Program-made: the position numbers and the translations under genes
Part shown: piece by piece, positions 1,055 to 6,285 of the stretch
Layout of the letters: the number at the start of each line of letters is the position of its first letter
Position numbering within the stretch: position 1 is the stretch's first letter
The notes under the pieces: generated by a model
The model's input: only the letters and a program-made list of their open reading frames with translations
Database searches by the model: none
What the model was told of the DNA's origin: nothing
Origin: Candidatus Omnitrophota bacterium
GTDB taxonomy: Bacteria > Omnitrophota > Gorgyraeia > JACOVV01
Assembly (NCBI GenBank): GCA_023248175.1
Contig: JAHFFC010000042.1
Coordinates: forward strand, 1 to 6,997
Reading direction: 5' to 3'
DNA: 6,997 nucleotides

Positions 1055-1136
1055 AGAAAATGCCCACCGAAGGCGGGTCCTCTGCCAGAGGCAGATTCGC
1101 CTCAGGCGAAGCCTCTGGCGGAGAAAATAGAAAATG
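1055..1136 (+). repeat. 8-base direct repeats flanking the palindrome cluster (possible target duplication)
   Basis: AGAAAATG occurs at 1055-1062 and again at 1129-1136, on both sides of the palindrome cluster. The second copy contains the ATG of the HTTM gene. Removing one copy and the material between would leave that ATG 7 bases after the upstream stop codon, a normal operon spacing. This looks like an insertion footprint. The surroundings are A-rich, so chance is a real alternative. Confidence 0.3.
1063..1123 (+). repeat. Cluster of tandem short palindromes between genes, able to fold into one long hairpin
   Basis: Four small palindromes of the form (xx)GCC-NNN-GGC(xx) lie side by side: CCCACC-GAA-GGCGGG at 1063-1077 (one mismatch), TCTGCC-AGA-GGCAGA at 1081-1095, TTCGCC-TCA-GGCGAA at 1096-1110 and GCC-TCT-GGC at 1111-1119. 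They can also pair across each other: GCCAGAGGC (1084-1092) with GCCTCTGGC (1111-1119), plus TTCGCC with GGCGAA. With C1080-T1083 against G1120-G1123, this gives a stem of about 19 pairs with a 3-base bulge and one G-T pair. No T-run follows on the plus strand, so it is not a standard terminator for this operon. Its last bases (GGAG, 1120-1123) form the probable ribosome site of the next gene. The class looks like extragenic palindromic (REP-like) DNA. Confidence 0.75.
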
Positions 1137-2429
1137 GATAATGGAAAAATACTACAGCTCTGGAATCGACTTTTCCTAGGTTATCGTTCTTCGTTGACTT
1201 TTTCTCTCTTCCGAATTGCTGTTGCCCTCACCGTTGGTTTCCATGTCATTCCTTCCTTTTTCCAACTCCAGGACAATTATCTTTCAACAGCTTTTAAAGA
1301 AGTGAACCTTTCCTTCTTTACGCCGAGTGTCGTCCATTGGGTTCAACAGAGTCCCGATTGGCTGGTTTATTTTTTCGTGGTGTTCTTCCTTCTTTATTGG
1401 TTTTTCTTTCTGATCGGTCTCTACTCACAAGTGAGCGGCATTTTAATGATGGCTGCCTGCTACTATTTCTACGCGCTCAATTCTTTTCATATCGGGACGC
1501 TTTCATGGGATATTCTTTTAGTGACGCTGTTTCTGGTATGTGTTACTGGTTACCACGGCGATTATTTTTCTGTGGACGCCCTGCGCCAGACCCATACTTT
1601 CGTTTATAAGAAAAAGAGGCCCTTTTTTATCCAACGGCTCTTGCAACTTCAAATCGCCTTCAATTATTTTTACACGGGACTCTATAAAGTGACCGCCCAG
1701 GGAAATTGGTTAAAAGATAACCCGCTTTATTATTTGTGGAACTATCCTCCAGAGGGGGTAACTAAACAGTTTATCTTTCGGGAATTTTTTGCTTCGCGGC
1801 CGGAACTCTGCTACTGGATGGGGATCGGAATTATCGCGATGGAATTGTCGGCGCCGTTATTGCTTTTTTGGCCGAGGACACGGTTCTTCGCGATTGGAGT
1901 TGCTTTTTTGTTTCATGTTCTTCTGGTCGTCACCCTGCATGTGCCAACGATTTTCTTCTTTCTCTTTCCACCCCAGCTTCTTCTATTCGTTAATCCAGAT
2001 GATATCCTTGGGTGGATTAAGCGGAAAAGAAAGGGAAATCTTGCCGGCGGCCAGAGTCAAATTATCTATGACGGGCAATGCCATTTTTGCCAGTGGAATA
2101 TCCAGAAGTTGCTCATCATGGATTTATTCGGACACTTAAAAAAGGTAGATTATCACCGCTATGAAGATGTTCGACAATTGCATCCGAGTCTCGATCAGGG
2201 AAAATGTCACAGCCAGCTTCACTTGATCGAACCGACTGGAAGAATTCACGGTGGCTTTTTTATCTTCCGCCGGTTGTGCTTGAAGTTACCAATGCTCTAT
2301 CCATTGATTCCTATTTTCTATTTTCCTGGTTCAGGAATTATTGGGCCGTGGGTTTACCGGTGGGTGGCTAAGAATCGGTATCTGCTGCATTTTAATAAGA
2401 GATGCCAGAACAATGCATGTTTTAGGTAG
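1134..2429 (+). CDS. HTTM-domain membrane protein fused to a C-terminal DCC (DUF393) thiol-disulfide domain
   Basis: This is a 431-residue polytopic membrane protein with two domains. Residues about 15-290 contain several hydrophobic spans and match the HTTM (horizontally transferred transmembrane) family, which is related to the membrane part of vitamin K-dependent gamma-carboxylase. Typical signs are the FSLFRIAVALTVGFH start, the WDILLVTLFLV span, and the QLQIAFNYFYTGLYKVT / GNWLKDNP segment with conserved Gly, Lys and Trp. After a basic linker (KRKRKGN, about 297-302), residues about 309-420 form a DCC/DUF393 domain: IYDGQCHFCQ with a CxxC pair (C316, C319), a downstream Asp, and the YRWVAKNRYLL ending. 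DCC proteins are thioredoxin-like in proposal; HTTM chemistry in bacteria is unresolved. GGAG at 1120-1123, 10 bases before ATG 1134, fits as ribosome site. A role in thiol or modification chemistry with the 594 protein is inference. Confidence 0.85.
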   Translation: MDNGKILQLWNRLFLGYRSSLTFSLFRIAVALTVGFHVIPSFFQLQDNYLSTAFKEVNLSFFTPSVVHWVQQSPDWLVYFFVVFFLLYWFFFLIGLYSQVSGILMMAACYYFYALNSFHIGTLSWDILLVTLFLVCVTGYHGDYFSVDALRQTHTFVYKKKRPFFIQRLLQLQIAFNYFYTGLYKVTAQGNWLKDNPLYYLWNYPPEGVTKQFIFREFFASRPELCYWMGIGIIAMELSAPLLLFWPRTRFFAIGVAFLFHVLLVVTLHVPTIFFFLFPPQLLLFVNPDDILGWIKRKRKGNLAGGQSQIIYDGQCHFCQWNIQKLLIMDLFGHLKKVDYHRYEDVRQLHPSLDQGKCHSQLHLIEPTGRIHGGFFIFRRLCLKLPMLYPLIPIFYFPGSGIIGPWVYRWVAKNRYLLHFNKRCQNNACFR

Positions 2430-2438
2430 GGGGGCGAT

Positions 2439-3386
2439 ATGCTCTTATCAGTCCATCATCTTCGTAAATATTTCCCAGTCCAGTCGAGCTTTTGGAGAAA
2501 AGCATCAGGGTTCATTCATGCTGTAGACGGGGTTTCTCTTTTTCTACCGGCTCAACAGACGATTGGGTTAGTTGGAGAATCTGGCTGTGGGAAATCTACT
2601 CTAGCTCGAATCATGGTCGGTTTGATCGTACCCGATGCGGGTGAGGTTTTCTATGATGGGAAAAAGATTTCTCTGGAAAATTCCCAGCAGTTGAACCGGT
2701 TCCGACAAAACGTGCAGATCGTTTTTCAAGATTCAGCGAATGCATTTGATCCGCGGTTTACGGTGAAAAAAATCTTAGAAGAACCCCTGAAGATAAATAG
2801 GTTGAAGGTTGAAGGTAGCCTCTACCTACGAAAGATTCTTGAGTCTGTTGGCCTCTCGGAGGAGATTCTTCTTCGTTATCCCCACCAGCTCAGTGGCGGA
2901 CAGCGTCAAAGAGTGGGTATTGCTCGAGCTTTGGTTGTGCGGCCGAAAGTTCTGATTCTCGATGAACCGGTTTCCGCTTTGGATATTTCGATTCAGGGAC
3001 AGATATTAAATCTGTTGCTGGATATTCAGAAAAAATACCGTTTATCTTATTTGATTATTTCCCACGATCTCAAAGTTATCCGTCGGCTCTGCGACTGGAT
3101 TGCGGTGATGTATTTGGGAAAAATTGTTGAGTTTGCCCCGCGTCAGAAAATTTTCAACGAATCCTACCACCCTTACACGAAGTCTCTTCTTCAGGCGGCC
3201 CAGTTGAGTGCTCTCACAACGGGATCGCTTGGGATACAGGGTGAACCCCCATCGCCTCTGCATCCCCCCAGCGGGTGCCGGTTCCGCACTCGCTGTCCCT
3301 TCGCCGAGAAGCGCTGTCAGGAAGAAGAGCCTCTCCTGACCCCTCGCGGCGCGGGACACAAAGCGGCCTGTCATGTCTTCGTTTAA
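2439..3386 (+). CDS. oppF: Oligopeptide/dipeptide ABC transporter ATP-binding protein (OppF/DppF family)
   Basis: This 315-residue ATPase of the peptide/nickel uptake ABC family would power import at the inner face of the membrane. All nucleotide-binding motifs are present in order: Walker A GESGCGKST (46-54), Q-loop VFQD (95-98), signature LSGGQRQRVG (151-160), Walker B VLILDEP (171-177), D-loop SALD (179-182) and switch His in ISHD (H209). The C-terminal oligopeptide extension is complete: YHPYTKSLL (243-251), then a cysteine set C280, C286, C293, C311 in the GCRFRTRCP ... GHKAACH pattern, which in some family members is reported to hold an iron-sulfur cluster. Length is normal. The start at 2439 has a G-rich ribosome site (2428-2434), and 9 bases separate it from the HTTM stop. 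The OppF versus DppF distinction cannot be made. No permease, binding protein or OppD partner is in the window, so any partners are encoded elsewhere or it serves another system. Confidence 0.95.
   Translation: MLLSVHHLRKYFPVQSSFWRKASGFIHAVDGVSLFLPAQQTIGLVGESGCGKSTLARIMVGLIVPDAGEVFYDGKKISLENSQQLNRFRQNVQIVFQDSANAFDPRFTVKKILEEPLKINRLKVEGSLYLRKILESVGLSEEILLRYPHQLSGGQRQRVGIARALVVRPKVLILDEPVSALDISIQGQILNLLLDIQKKYRLSYLIISHDLKVIRRLCDWIAVMYLGKIVEFAPRQKIFNESYHPYTKSLLQAAQLSALTTGSLGIQGEPPSPLHPPSGCRFRTRCPFAEKRCQEEEPLLTPRGAGHKAACHVFV
2799..2827 (+). repeat. In-frame heptad repeat plus short hairpin inside the oppF gene
   Basis: Two exact copies of AGGTTGA (2799-2805, 2806-2812) are followed by AGGTAG (2813-2818), a CCT loop and the inverted CTACCT (2822-2827). 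The forward-then-inverted layout matches the elements at the glgC-thiG junction and in yggS. It encodes roughly residues 121-130 (RLKVEGSLYL), a variable linker of the ATPase between the Q-loop and the signature motif, so it should not disturb the active site. It is short enough that chance cannot be excluded on its own. Confidence 0.5.
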
Positions 3387-3397: not shown

Positions 3398-3406
3398 ATG
3401 CCTGTT

Positions 3407-4654
3407 ATGAAAAAATTACTGACCTTTATCATGGCGGGCGGCAAAGGAGAACGGCTCTACCCCTTGACCAAAGACCGCGCAAAACCGGCGGTCCCCTTCG
3501 GCGGGATTTATCGGATCATTGATTTTACCCTCTCCAATTGCATCAATTCAGGAATTCGGAGGATTCATGTCCTCACCCAGTATAAATCGCACTCCCTGGA
3601 TTTGCACCTGAAGATGGGGTGGAATATTTTCAACATGGAATTAAAGGAATACATTGACGTCATCCCGGCGCAGCAAAGGGTTGGGGAGAGCTGGTATCGC
3701 GGTACGGCGGATGCCATTTATCAGAACATTTATTCCATCGAGGCGGAGAAGCCGGATCAGGTATTGATTCTTGCGGGGGATCACATTTATAAAATGGATT
3801 ATGCAAAGCTCATCAATGATCATCGCTTGAGGGGGGCGGATGTTACCGTGGGATTGGTCAAAATGCCGAAGGAGCAGTCTCCGAACTTAGGTGTTGTTCA
3901 AGTAGATTCAGAGGTAAAAATGATCGGTTTTCAGGAAAAGCCAAAGAATCCCATTACCATTCCCGGTGCACCAGATTTGATCTACGCTTCAATGGGGATC
4001 TATGTTTTCAATCGAATGGTATTAGAGGAGGAATTGGTCAAAGACGCCAAGCGAACCAACAGCACTCATGATTTTGGCCGCGACGTCATCCCCTCTATTT
4101 TGGATCACTGCAAAGTCTACGGCTACGATTTCGGCGCCGATTCTAGTGAGCCGATTCCCTATTGGCGCGACATCGGAACGATCGACGCCTACTGGTCTGC
4201 CAACATGGATCTGGTGCAGATTACGCCGGTCTTTAACCTCTACGATAAAGAATGGCCTATCAGGACTTATCAAGAACAATATCCACCTGTCAAAACCGTC
4301 TTTGCTCTCGAGGAAGAGGGACGAGTGGGACTGGCTCTGGATTCTCTCATTTCTAACGGCTGTATTATCAGCGGCGGACGGGTGGAACGTTCTGTTCTTT
4401 CTCCCGGCGTCCGGGTGAACAGTTATTCTTCGGTGAGCGATTCTGTTTTGATGGAGGGAGTCAGCGTCGGGCGCTATGCCAAAATTAAACGGGCGATCAT
4501 TGATAAAGATGTCCAGATTCCTCCCAACGTAGAAATTGGTTTTGATCTGGAGCAGGACCGGAAACATTTCCATCTGACGGAATCGGGGATTGTCGTCGTG
4601 GCAAAAGGGACGACGATTAAAACGGATACAGTTTCGATTAGTCGTGAGGGGTGA
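3407..4654 (+). CDS. glgC: Glucose-1-phosphate adenylyltransferase (ADP-glucose pyrophosphorylase)
   Basis: GlgC makes ADP-glucose from ATP and glucose 1-phosphate, the committed step of bacterial glycogen synthesis in the cytoplasm. With the start at 3407 the protein is 415 residues, normal for the family. Motifs seen, numbered from that start: AGGKGERLYPLT nucleotide loop (10-21), PAVPFGG (27-33), GTADAIYQN (100-108), catalytic AGDHIYKMDY (123-132), glucose-phosphate site FQEKP (175-179), SMGIYVF (196-202) and YWRDIGTIDAYW (252-263). A left-handed beta-helix follows from about 310 onward. An ATG at 3398 is also in frame and would add three residues, but it lies directly against the TATAAT box, and family members usually begin at the MKKLLTFIMAGG equivalent, so I prefer 3407. 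No Shine-Dalgarno is visible. The last codons (SREG) lie in the heptad repeat that leads into thiG. No other glycogen gene is in the window. Confidence 0.95.
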   Translation: MKKLLTFIMAGGKGERLYPLTKDRAKPAVPFGGIYRIIDFTLSNCINSGIRRIHVLTQYKSHSLDLHLKMGWNIFNMELKEYIDVIPAQQRVGESWYRGTADAIYQNIYSIEAEKPDQVLILAGDHIYKMDYAKLINDHRLRGADVTVGLVKMPKEQSPNLGVVQVDSEVKMIGFQEKPKNPITIPGAPDLIYASMGIYVFNRMVLEEELVKDAKRTNSTHDFGRDVIPSILDHCKVYGYDFGADSSEPIPYWRDIGTIDAYWSANMDLVQITPVFNLYDKEWPIRTYQEQYPPVKTVFALEEEGRVGLALDSLISNGCIISGGRVERSVLSPGVRVNSYSSVSDSVLMEGVSVGRYAKIKRAIIDKDVQIPPNVEIGFDLEQDRKHFHLTESGIVVVAKGTTIKTDTVSISREG

Positions 4655-4731
4655 GTCGTGAGTGAAAGGATAAGAGGCTTTAGAGATTTGACAGATGCGA
4701 CCCACGACCCACGACTCACGATCCACGATGG
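4642..4731 (+). repeat. Inverted heptad-repeat element across the glgC-thiG junction
   Basis: The forward arm has three 7-base units: TCGTGAG (4642-4648), GGGTGAG (4649-4655) and TCGTGAG (4656-4662). After a 34-base spacer the opposite-strand form follows as five units: GCGACCC, ACGACCC, ACGACTC, ACGATCC and ACGATGG (4697-4731). GTGAGTCGTG (4651-4660) pairs perfectly with CACGACTCAC (4710-4719). The element supplies the end of glgC and its TGA (4652-4654), a GAGGGG ribosome site (4646-4651), the GTG start of thiG (4658) and the ThiG N-terminal extension. The 10-base stem covers the thiG start codon, so it could affect translation. This resembles heptameric STRR repeats. Confidence 0.75.
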
Positions 4732-5494
4732 ACTCAGAATTGGTGATCGGGTTTACCGTTCTCGACTGATTGTCGGAACAGGAAAATACCAAACATTTGA
4801 GATCATGAAAGAGGGGCTCCGTGCCTCAGGGGCTGAAATCGTTACGGTGGCTGTTCGCAGGATTAATCTTGACGACCCAACTCAAGAGTCGCTTCTCGAT
4901 CATATTGATCGGCAAAAGTATACTCTCTTGCCGAATACCGCCGGCTGTTACACCGCCGAAGAGGCGGTCAGGATCGCCCGATTGGGACGGGAAGTGGGAC
5001 TTTCAAACTTAGTGAAACTGGAAGTCATTGGAGATCCCAAAACATTATTGCCGGATACGATGGCGTTGCTGTCTGCCACAAAAATATTGGTCAAAGAGGG
5101 ATTTGTCGTGATGCCTTATACCAATGACGATCCGATCATGGCGAAACGATTGGAAGATGCGGGGGCAGTTTGTGTGATGCCGCTGGCGGCGCCGATTGGG
5201 TCGGGTCAGGGAATCTTGAACCGCGTTAACATTGAGTTCATCAAAGAGGCCGTGAAAGTTCCCGTCATTGTGGATGCTGGTGTCGGGACTGCGTCAGACG
5301 CGGCCGTCGCGATGGAACTTGGCGCCGATGGGGTTTTAATGAACACCGCCATCGCCGGTGCCAAAGATCCGGTCAAAATGGCGCGGGCGATGCGGCTTGC
5401 AGTAGAGGCTGGTCGTCTTGCCTGGGAGGCGGGACGAATCCCGAAGCGGCGATACGGCAGCGCCAGCAGTCCGAATGAAGGGAAACTCGAGTGA
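4658..5494 (+). CDS. thiG: Thiazole synthase ThiG
   Basis: ThiG is a TIM-barrel enzyme that joins deoxyxylulose 5-phosphate, dehydroglycine (or iminoglycine) and ThiS-carried sulfur to make the thiazole phosphate of thiamin. The protein has 278 residues, about 20 more than usual. The conserved fold starts at about residue 26 ([19 protein letters not shown]). Key features are [10 protein letters not shown] (59-68), the VKLEVIGD motif whose Lys (K120) corresponds to the Schiff-base lysine, PLAAPIGSG (175-183), and [16 protein letters not shown] / [12 protein letters not shown], the phosphate-binding C-terminal barrel. Residues 1-25 are an extension encoded by the heptad-repeat element. The GTG start at 4658 has a GAGGGG site 6 bases upstream. 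The glgC TGA at 4652-4654 is in the same frame, so the start cannot lie further upstream, and no good later start is visible. No thiS, thiH or thiO is nearby. It overlaps yggS by 4 bases if yggS starts at GTG 5491. Confidence 0.95.
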
Positions 5495-6285
5495 GGATGG
5501 AAGAAACGTTTCTTCCATCTAATATGCTTCGAGAACGTCTCCATGACATCCACTCCCGCATCGAGCAAACCGCCCGCCGAGTCGGACGTAATCCTGCCGA
5601 TATTCAACTAGTCGCCGTCACAAAAAACGTCCCCATCGGAACCATCCGAGAGGCAATCTCATTAGGGGTTCGTCACATTGGCGAGAATAAAATGCAGGAA
5701 GCCTTGTTCAAATATAAACAACTCGAAAGGTGGAAAGAACTTCGACCTTCCACCTTCGACCTTCCGCCTCTTCAATGGCACCTCATCGGCCATCTGCAGA
5801 CCAATAAAGTCCGCGACGCGGTACAGATTTTCGATTGGATTCACTCCGTGGACAGTCTGCGGCTTGCTGAGAAGATTAATCATGAGGCCGAGAAAATCAA
5901 GAAGGTGATGCCGGTTTTAATCGAAGTCAATACTTCAGGTGAATCTGCCAAATACGGTGTCTCTCCAAAAGAGCTCCCTGAATTGATCACTGACATAAAA
6001 TCACTCTCATCCCTCCATGTCGAAGGGCTCATGACCATGGCCCCCATCGTTTCCGACCCCAATCAAGCCCGCCCTTATTTCCAGCAATTAGCCCGATTAC
6101 GCCAAGAGATTCTCGAGCAATGTCCGGTTACGCCCACAAGCCCCCCAACTCCCCAGCCACACAGTGCTTTGGCACTTTTCCATCTTTCCATGGGGATGAG
6201 CCAGGATTTTGAAGCAGCCATTGAAGAAGGGGCAACGATGGTGCGGATCGGAAATGCAATTTTTTATCGCACCCGTTTTAAATAG
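5491..6285 (+). CDS. yggS: Pyridoxal-phosphate homeostasis protein (YggS/PLPBP family)
   Basis: This PLP-binding single-domain TIM-barrel protein, in the fold of alanine racemase's N-terminal domain, buffers PLP and has no established catalytic activity. Seen here: LVAVTKNVP with the PLP lysine K45, [12 protein letters not shown] (65-76), [12 protein letters not shown] (96-107), [12 protein letters not shown] (146-157), [21 protein letters not shown] (232-244) and [10 protein letters not shown] (249-258). At 264 residues it is about 30 longer than typical. The excess maps to three places: residues 1-11 before MLRERL, about 80-93 (repeat-encoded), and about 211-228 (Pro/Thr-rich). GTG 5491 overlaps the thiG stop and has GGGA (5480-5483) 7 bases upstream. 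ATG 5497 is too close to GAGG. ATG 5524 best fits the family N-terminus but lacks a ribosome site. The start is therefore uncertain; coupling with thiG favours 5491. The 3' end overlaps the opposite-strand regulator by 22 bases. Confidence 0.93.
5496..5519. repeat. Perfect 24-base palindrome at the start of yggS
   Basis: The half-site GATGGAAGAAAC (5496-5507) is followed at once by its exact reverse complement (5508-5519), with no spacer and no mismatch. It lies between the thiG stop (5492-5494) and the family-typical yggS ATG (5524). In frame from 5491 it encodes METFLPS-like residues not expected in YggS. Its core GAAACGTTTC resembles LacI-family operators, and as RNA it would form a hairpin just upstream of 5524. 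Operator, translational hairpin and inserted palindromic element are all possible. Confidence 0.7.
5724..5768 (+). repeat. Inverted heptad-repeat element translated inside yggS
   Basis: Four 7-base units follow each other: TTCGACC (5741-5747), TTCCACC (5748-5754), TTCGACC (5755-5761) and TTCCGCC (5762-5768). Just upstream, AAGGTGGAA (5727-5735) is the exact inverse of TTCCACCTT (5748-5756), giving a 9-pair stem with a 12-base loop; CGA/TCG flanks nearly extend it. On the opposite strand the unit reads GGTCGAA, close to the AGGTTGA units in oppF. It is read in frame as about residues 80-93 ([14 protein letters not shown]), placed between [14 protein letters not shown] and LQWHLIGHL, where the family normally has a short loop. 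Confidence 0.7.
6121..6177 (+). other. Pro/Thr-rich insert segment in yggS with a short hairpin
   Basis: This segment encodes about residues 211-229 ([19 protein letters not shown]). It is C-rich, unlike the gene around it, and sits just before the conserved LSMGMS motif, where the family usually has only a few loop residues. It ends with AGTGC (6163-6167), a TTTG loop and GCACT (6172-6176). I see no clear heptad repeat, so its relation to the other element in this gene is unproven. Confidence 0.4.

Follow-up and report, generated by a model that had tools for sequence, protein, structure and literature searches.

Cyanobacterial STRR heptamers consist of tandem 7-nt units. Heptamer direct repeats of the unit TAACTGA occur in marine Beggiatoaceae, cyanobacteria, and some Bacteroidetes. 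In the portions of that study drawn on here, they comprise a single unit in direct repeats (one indirect repeat is noted), lie near start codons, mostly between genes or at protein ends, and have stops in all frames of one strand and an open other strand; the open orientation is found in 11 ORFs, and the distribution is patchy (MacGregor 2015, PMC4679880). In Nostoc, class II heptads of the form NNTGAGT build the P6b stem of the trnL intron, a cyanobacterial group I intron, according to the section used here (PMC4476775). GGGAATC/GGGGAYT heptamers of Xanthomonas and Nostoc are described, in the part of the paper considered, as genome-wide, preferably between genes, with inverted repeats mentioned; the units are of the G-quadruplex type and under-represented in coding regions, and three heptanucleotides in Calothrix are cited (PMC4692102). 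Borg tandem repeats are, in the sections covered, of independent origin, lie in intergenic DNA and in ORFs, and add to proteins; within ORFs their unit is divisible by three (PMC9879509). Rickettsia palindromic elements insert in frame into unrelated genes; they measure about 150 bp in the described families, and the part of the account used here mentions no heptad units (PMC10969869).

The window analysed here, the whole stretch of 6,997 nt, is contig C28 of a 139-contig metagenome-type bin (880 kb, 71% complete). Positions 4642-4729 hold two opposed heptad arrays, exactly at the junction of glgC and thiG (Table 1). A sequence-only reading had described a heptad-repeat hairpin at this site, which our analysis confirms overall. 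The forward heptads TCGTGAG/GGGTGAG/TCGTGAG are present at 4642-4662, the inverted units at 4698-4729, and the perfect 10-base inverted pair at 4651-4660/4710-4719, each where it had been claimed.

Table 1 Features of the glgC-thiG junction and further heptad arrays in the window.
Feature	Position	Strand	Description	Evidence
Heptad array, GAAAATR	1122..1148	+	Across start codon (ATG 1134) of HTTM/DCC1-like gene	
Short heptad array, AGGTTGA	2799..2816	+	Inside OppF-like ABC ATPase gene	Score 11 (just at threshold)
glgC	3398..4654	+		Pfam NTP_transferase, Hexapep_GlmU, LbH_GLGC
Forward heptad arm	4642..4663	+	TCGTGAG GGGTGAG TCGTGAG T	Sequence
Candidate thiG start GTG	4658..4660	+	3 nt past glgC stop; predicted paired in stem	
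thiG	4658..5494	+	278 aa from GTG; residues 1-25 ahead of conserved fold	
Loop	4664..4697	+	34 nt; AAGGA/AGAGG purine stretches (possible ribosome sites, by eye)	
Second candidate thiG start TTG	4688..4690	+	In loop	In-frame start scan
Inverted heptad arm	4698..4729	+	More than 4 units; open in thiG frame	Period-7 score 17.5
Heptad array, GAAGGTS family	5737..5764	+	Inside yggS; codes ELRPSTFDL shortly before conserved WHLIGHLQ	

The junction element belongs among heptamer tandem repeats: its 7-nt units exceed chance, with a period-7 score of 17.5 against a maximum of 11 over 300 dinucleotide shuffles (exceeding 300 of 300), and the genome holds many further copies. Its units are of the TCGTGAG type, not TAACTGA. 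It resembles the TAACTGA repeats in unit length, in lying near start codons, and in having one strand with stops in all frames and an open complement; a patchy distribution and open-orientation copies in ORFs are further features in common. However, the arrays here use many units, are opposed, insert within conserved enzymes, and occupy the same junction with different units in relatives; in addition, TCGTGAG encodes a start codon, whereas TAACTGA does not. As in the Nostoc intron, heptads build a stem, and two of the three forward units fit NNTGAGT (GGTGAGT and CGTGAGT), but the stem here lies at an operon junction, and one of its arms is within a reading frame. The likeness to STRR heptamers proposed by the sequence-only reading stands for the tandem units, their length, and the NNTGAGT-type motif; membership does not, as the host probably lies outside the cyanobacteria. 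Among 120 listed ThiG proteins, most of them without an organism name, every homologue with an organism in its name is Candidatus Omnitrophica/Omnitrophota, to which the host therefore likely belongs. Unlike the Borg repeats in ORFs, the unit here is 7. In-frame insertion in unrelated genes is shared by the heptad class (metG, murB, gatA, and yggS) with the Rickettsia elements, a likeness by description alone.

The periodicity of the element is clear. The hairpin alone is unremarkable, modestly above chance: its inverted-repeat score is equalled in 5 of 100 shuffles of 3501-5900, and 10 of 200 shuffled sequences are predicted to fold as stably as it does (-29.0 kcal/mol, z -1.85). The forward arm has only three units, which the inverted arm complements inexactly. 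As both arms consist of heptads, they can pair in two registers; the predicted fold takes the one without the 10-base pair, 4642-4663/4700-4721, which is 82% complementary. An intrinsic terminator is rejected, as no T run follows the stem end at 4729; a terminator scan of 4400-5000 returns 0 sites, and the scan permits only 3-8 nt loops, so it is blind to a 34-nt loop. A known RNA family is likewise rejected, with 0 Rfam matches in the window at gathering score.

As the sequence-only reading had claimed, the element carries both the glgC stop (TGA 4652-4654, in the second forward heptad) and the thiG GTG; the forward arm also overlaps the final glgC codons (SREG). The thiG frame has only two ATG, GTG, or TTG codons ahead of the conserved fold, at -42 (TTG 4688) and -72 (GTG 4658) from the core. 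Both canonical starts are inside the element; therefore, the inverted arm is translated unless the thiG start is non-canonical. These observations support the view that the heptad repeat has become gene structure on both sides, at the end of glgC and the beginning of thiG, and the element likely supplies the thiG start and the first 15-25 amino acids. The alignment with the best solved ThiG chain begins at residue 26. About 25 extra ThiG residues had been proposed, which holds for a start at GTG 4658; a start at TTG 4688 gives 15. The proposed masking of the start codon stays a prediction: folding places the GTG in a stem (probability of being unpaired 0.00-0.05), with modest significance for the fold. 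A TCGTGAG array has TGA and GTG in every reading frame, and its complement CTCACGA is stop-free in each (LTTHDSR). Of 16,380 heptads, 9.1% likewise combine a stop with a start on one strand and leave the complementary strand open.

The sole same-genus genome (G001, 60% complete) has no match to thiG, gatA, or yggS; therefore, the nearest comparison rests on protein N-termini. Six homologues among the 120 listed ThiG proteins are 90-92% identical to the window's. Five of the six have short N-termini unlike it, and the sixth (P0006) has a different, heptad-like N-terminus, SQVTGHKSQV; the same N-terminus lacking heptad periodicity at the DNA level is not seen among the six. N-terminal extensions of at least 9 residues occur in 35 of the 120 listed proteins, and nine of these 35, the window's ThiG included and two of them identical, are encodable at >=90% by 7-nt-periodic DNA. 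The corresponding count for internal segments is 0 of 70.

The element is not unique: the window holds three other heptad arrays (Table 1), and the junctions of relatives hold other units. Over periods 4 to 21, the window has four arrays at period 7, two at the harmonic 14, and none at others. Further copies of the repeat were also searched for in the genome and found. Of 14 contigs chosen by number, 4 were masked and left out; the other ten (58,279 nt) contain six arrays at period 7, compared with 0-3 at any other period, and two contigs (L252 and L254) carry period-7 arrays of other units in both orientations. Three units of ACTNANN give 48 exact overlapping matches on 16 contigs and, with at most one mismatch, 96 matches versus 27 for the reversed pattern; GAAGGTN gives 15 versus 6 on 7 contigs, the CTCGAG family 12 versus 2 on 2 contigs, and the AACAGA family 5 versus 0 on 2 contigs, but reversed control patterns form arrays too, so the unit sequence is not special and these pattern counts are soft.

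Further arrays lie inside metG, murB, and gatA, and the reading frames stay open through these and the yggS array. The array residues correspond to an alignment gap relative to the best solved relative, of 9 residues in GatA, 8 in MetG, and 10 in YggS (compared with PipY), and such a gap is present in MurB as well. Two more genes carry arrays close to their N-terminal ends: one for an ABC ATPase, which by eye resembles PstB, and a phosphoribosyltransferase-like one that by eye resembles Apt. Pfam supports the ATPase, MetG, and MurB identities. At one contig end (G000:C62:1-162), a second fragment is 98% identical to the end of gatA, reflecting assembly redundancy or strain mixture. Opposed TCGTGAG-type units recur near position 1500 of locus L015 (contig C124), between nusG-like and rplK-like genes (by eye), a core operon junction.

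A subset of the ACTNANN arrays is palindromic. Eight such elements (L212, L215, L225, L229, L235, L240, L029, and L032) share the start GTAATG; the end is CTGAATAGTTAC exactly in two and nearly in four, and the copies differ partly by whole heptads. A ninth copy, on contig C122, has such ends in reverse orientation (L031 reversed). The family is MITE-like and mostly intergenic by eye; the copy on C11 overlaps the end of an ABC transporter frame. The GTAATG start is absent at 4642-4729.

The same junction can be compared across the class. ThiG genes were found in 118 of 292 class genomes; the junction set is 39 of these 118 and includes the best-scoring ones, and 38 were scored. Period-7 arrays lie upstream of thiG in 6 of the 38 at a score of 10 or 11, and in 5 at a score of 13. 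The density of arrays in the rest of the same loci predicts 0.18; as that remainder is largely coding, the enrichment partly reflects junction versus coding sequence. All six arrays fall among the 21 relatives in which glgC ends <=150 nt from the ThiG core, and 15 of these 21 have no period-7 array. The six genomes represent three families (f9, f7, and f51). In all six, the array begins 3-13 nt past the glgC stop, and the units are all different: AGCGTAG in both orientations (G263), AGCACTC (G198), GGGTGGT (G120), AGTGATG (G282), AGTGACT (G238), and AGCAGAC (G207). The arrays of G198 and G207 come after the ATG and have stop-free units; that of G282 contains both in-frame thiG start candidates; in G263 and G238, stop-containing units lie between the genes, as the G120 array probably does too. 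Because relatives place their arrays differently, no common junction mechanism is conserved. Array-free junctions include ATGA overlaps (G043 and G007).

The G263 junction has a predicted hairpin of -41.1 kcal/mol. At the G009 junction (L038), a period-8 array, GGCCACTC, stands in place of period-7 arrays, with a predicted fold of -49.6 kcal/mol; both energies are raw values that carry no shuffle control. The loci of the first 24 relatives (80,459 nt) contain one array at period 7 and four at period 8. All 39 thiG loci together contain 12 arrays at period 7, 0-3 at non-harmonic periods, and 12 at period 21.

Heptad inserts also recur at other sites. In an alignment of YggS from 12 relatives, the loop with the window's insert also has one in G198 and in G263; the DNA there contains period-7 arrays in G263 and none at a score of 10 in G198. 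At the loop before LSMGMS, arrays are present in G198, G263, and G238. The 12 yggS loci contain 16 arrays at period 7 and 0-1 at non-harmonic periods, with 7 and 5 at the harmonics 14 and 21; 7 of the 12 loci have no period-7 array. The G263 locus (L321) holds seven period-7 arrays and is the densest of the loci counted. The window's YggS has two extra stretches compared with relatives. The first is the heptad array at 5737-5764; the second, residues 211-230, is proline-rich with no period-7 call. The GatA insert is absent in seven of nine relatives, and the other two (G043 and G009) have other inserts at that loop; the nine gatA loci contain three period-7 arrays, all in the G009 locus. The heptad load is thus patchy, heavy in few genomes and not seen in many of the loci covered.

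Stretches of TCGTSAG number at least 118 across many phyla and occur in 13 of 292 class genomes, this one included. Among arrays in the TCGTSAG stretches listed, 46 of 143 have an inverted arm no more than 200 nt away that matches at >=12/14, and for 38 of 143 the reading frame stays open over 60 codons to either side; both are raw counts with no shuffled control. Transfer of these units across phyla is set aside; shared units are weak evidence for it, as the reversed pattern also occurs in 6 of 292 class genomes.

The most probable explanation is that these genomes repeatedly gain heptad arrays of differing sequence, by new formation or by spread, and retain them at sites that tolerate them. 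The junction element is then one of many heptad arrays here, one that holds the glgC stop and every canonical thiG start, and that likely acts as a stop-restart joint adding 15-25 residues to ThiG; we hold this interpretation as probable, with considerable reserve. It begins with what the genome and part of the class carry, arrays of constant unit length 7 and variable sequence at gene junctions, N-termini, and the interiors of conserved enzymes. Read in triplets, a heptad array presents the same seven codons in all three frames, with TGA and GTG per frame for TCGTGAG and no stop in any frame for CTCACGA. At the junction, an array probably arose or landed at an old stop/start overlap, of the ATGA kind that G043 and G007 show in the absence of an array; the former thiG start would thereby have been destroyed, with a heptad-borne or loop-borne one in its place, and the inverted arm tolerated as an open linker. 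Translation of thiG is predicted to be coupled to the end of glgC: the stem would hide the GTG, and ribosomes ending glgC at TGA 4652 would open the stem and restart at GTG 4658. If thiG instead begins at TTG 4688 in the loop, coupling would be unneeded. Recurrence at the same places would reflect local tolerance together with a process favouring 7-nt steps. Dispersal is suggested by the unit families common within the genome and by the palindromic subset with shared ends, which the window copy does not have. A single sequence-specific element is rejected as the whole story, since the unit differs at each junction and reversed controls form arrays.

The strongest competing account is plain replication slippage, in which 7-nt polymerase slips grow arrays from chance duplications and selection spares harmless sites, so that nothing spreads between sites and the junction copy has no function. 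It competes only with the last two parts of the scheme above, restart at the hidden GTG and recurrence, and our confidence in the two overlaps; we rate it a serious contender that falls a little short of being probable. It accords with a unit sequence that differs at each relative's junction and with the dominance of period 7 regardless of sequence. In accordance, the portion of MacGregor 2015 (PMC4679880) used here cites an earlier survey, in which heptanucleotides are the most abundant long repeats in most genomes, and a polymerase-slippage idea. However, unit families recur at many distinct sites of a single genome, and slippage alone makes no inverted arms, yet these occur at several sites. 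In addition, substitutions fall in fewer unit positions than random (54, compared with a mean of 63.3, for 27 arrays, with 0 of 2000 simulations as low), a difference subject to detection bias.

A mobile palindromic element, MITE- or RPE-like, would have a transposase move a heptad hairpin with defined ends; the window copy would then be degraded or partial and read into ThiG. The GTAATG start common to eight ACTNANN copies, the CTGAATAGTTAC end, and the reversed ninth copy are consistent with such movement, and the Rickettsia elements provide a known case of in-frame insertion, as described in the part of that source covered (PMC10969869). Nevertheless, the window element has neither shared end, and the junction arrays of relatives have unrelated units, which makes this origin unlikely for the element. 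We give still less credence to a selected regulatory RNA switch, a hairpin kept because it controls thiG translation or the glgC-thiG balance. The predicted pairing of the thiG start and the predicted junction hairpins of G263 and G009, with their energies uncontrolled by shuffling, point toward it; the 15 of 21 relatives with adjoining glgC-thiG and no period-7 array there, the short unrelated N-termini of five of the six nearest ThiG homologues, the lack of an Rfam match in the window, and folding modestly beyond shuffles argue against it. Chance or artefact, a coincidental low-complexity stretch or a misassembly, is highly improbable: repeats are places where assemblies fail, and 5 of 100 shuffles do as well as the inverted repeat taken by itself, but the period-7 score beats all 300, frames stay open through the arrays in metG, murB, gatA, and yggS, and similar arrays occur in other genomes of the class.

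A literature search of limited depth found no description of heptad repeats in Omnitrophota, nor of their recurrence at a junction or use within enzymes, and a search by the repeat letters found none; 'repeat' and 'heptamer' are absent from the main text of the phylum paper (PMC10066038), the part considered here. Bacterial heptamer repeats are already known, mostly described between genes in the literature covered. Here, the same operon junction is hit in several relatives with different sequences, and conserved enzymes contain arrays even though a 7-nt unit is not divisible by 3.

As a bolder and doubtful extension of the interpretation we prefer, part of Omnitrophota may actively build and scatter 7-nt arrays with hardly any limit on sequence, often paired as the forward and inverted arms of a hairpin, and aim them at gene boundaries and protein loops. 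With 7 coprime to 3, the arrays would form frame-independent joints, and operon junctions and N-termini would keep being rewritten with no frame breaks. If this is true, some units would stop and restart translation on one strand and provide an open linker on the other. In such genomes, gene starts assigned automatically, that of ThiG here among them, may derive from heptads, which calls for caution. These genomes offer a comparative system in which to study the preference for 7 nt, the pairing of arrays in opposite orientation, and the origin of new starts and N-termini.
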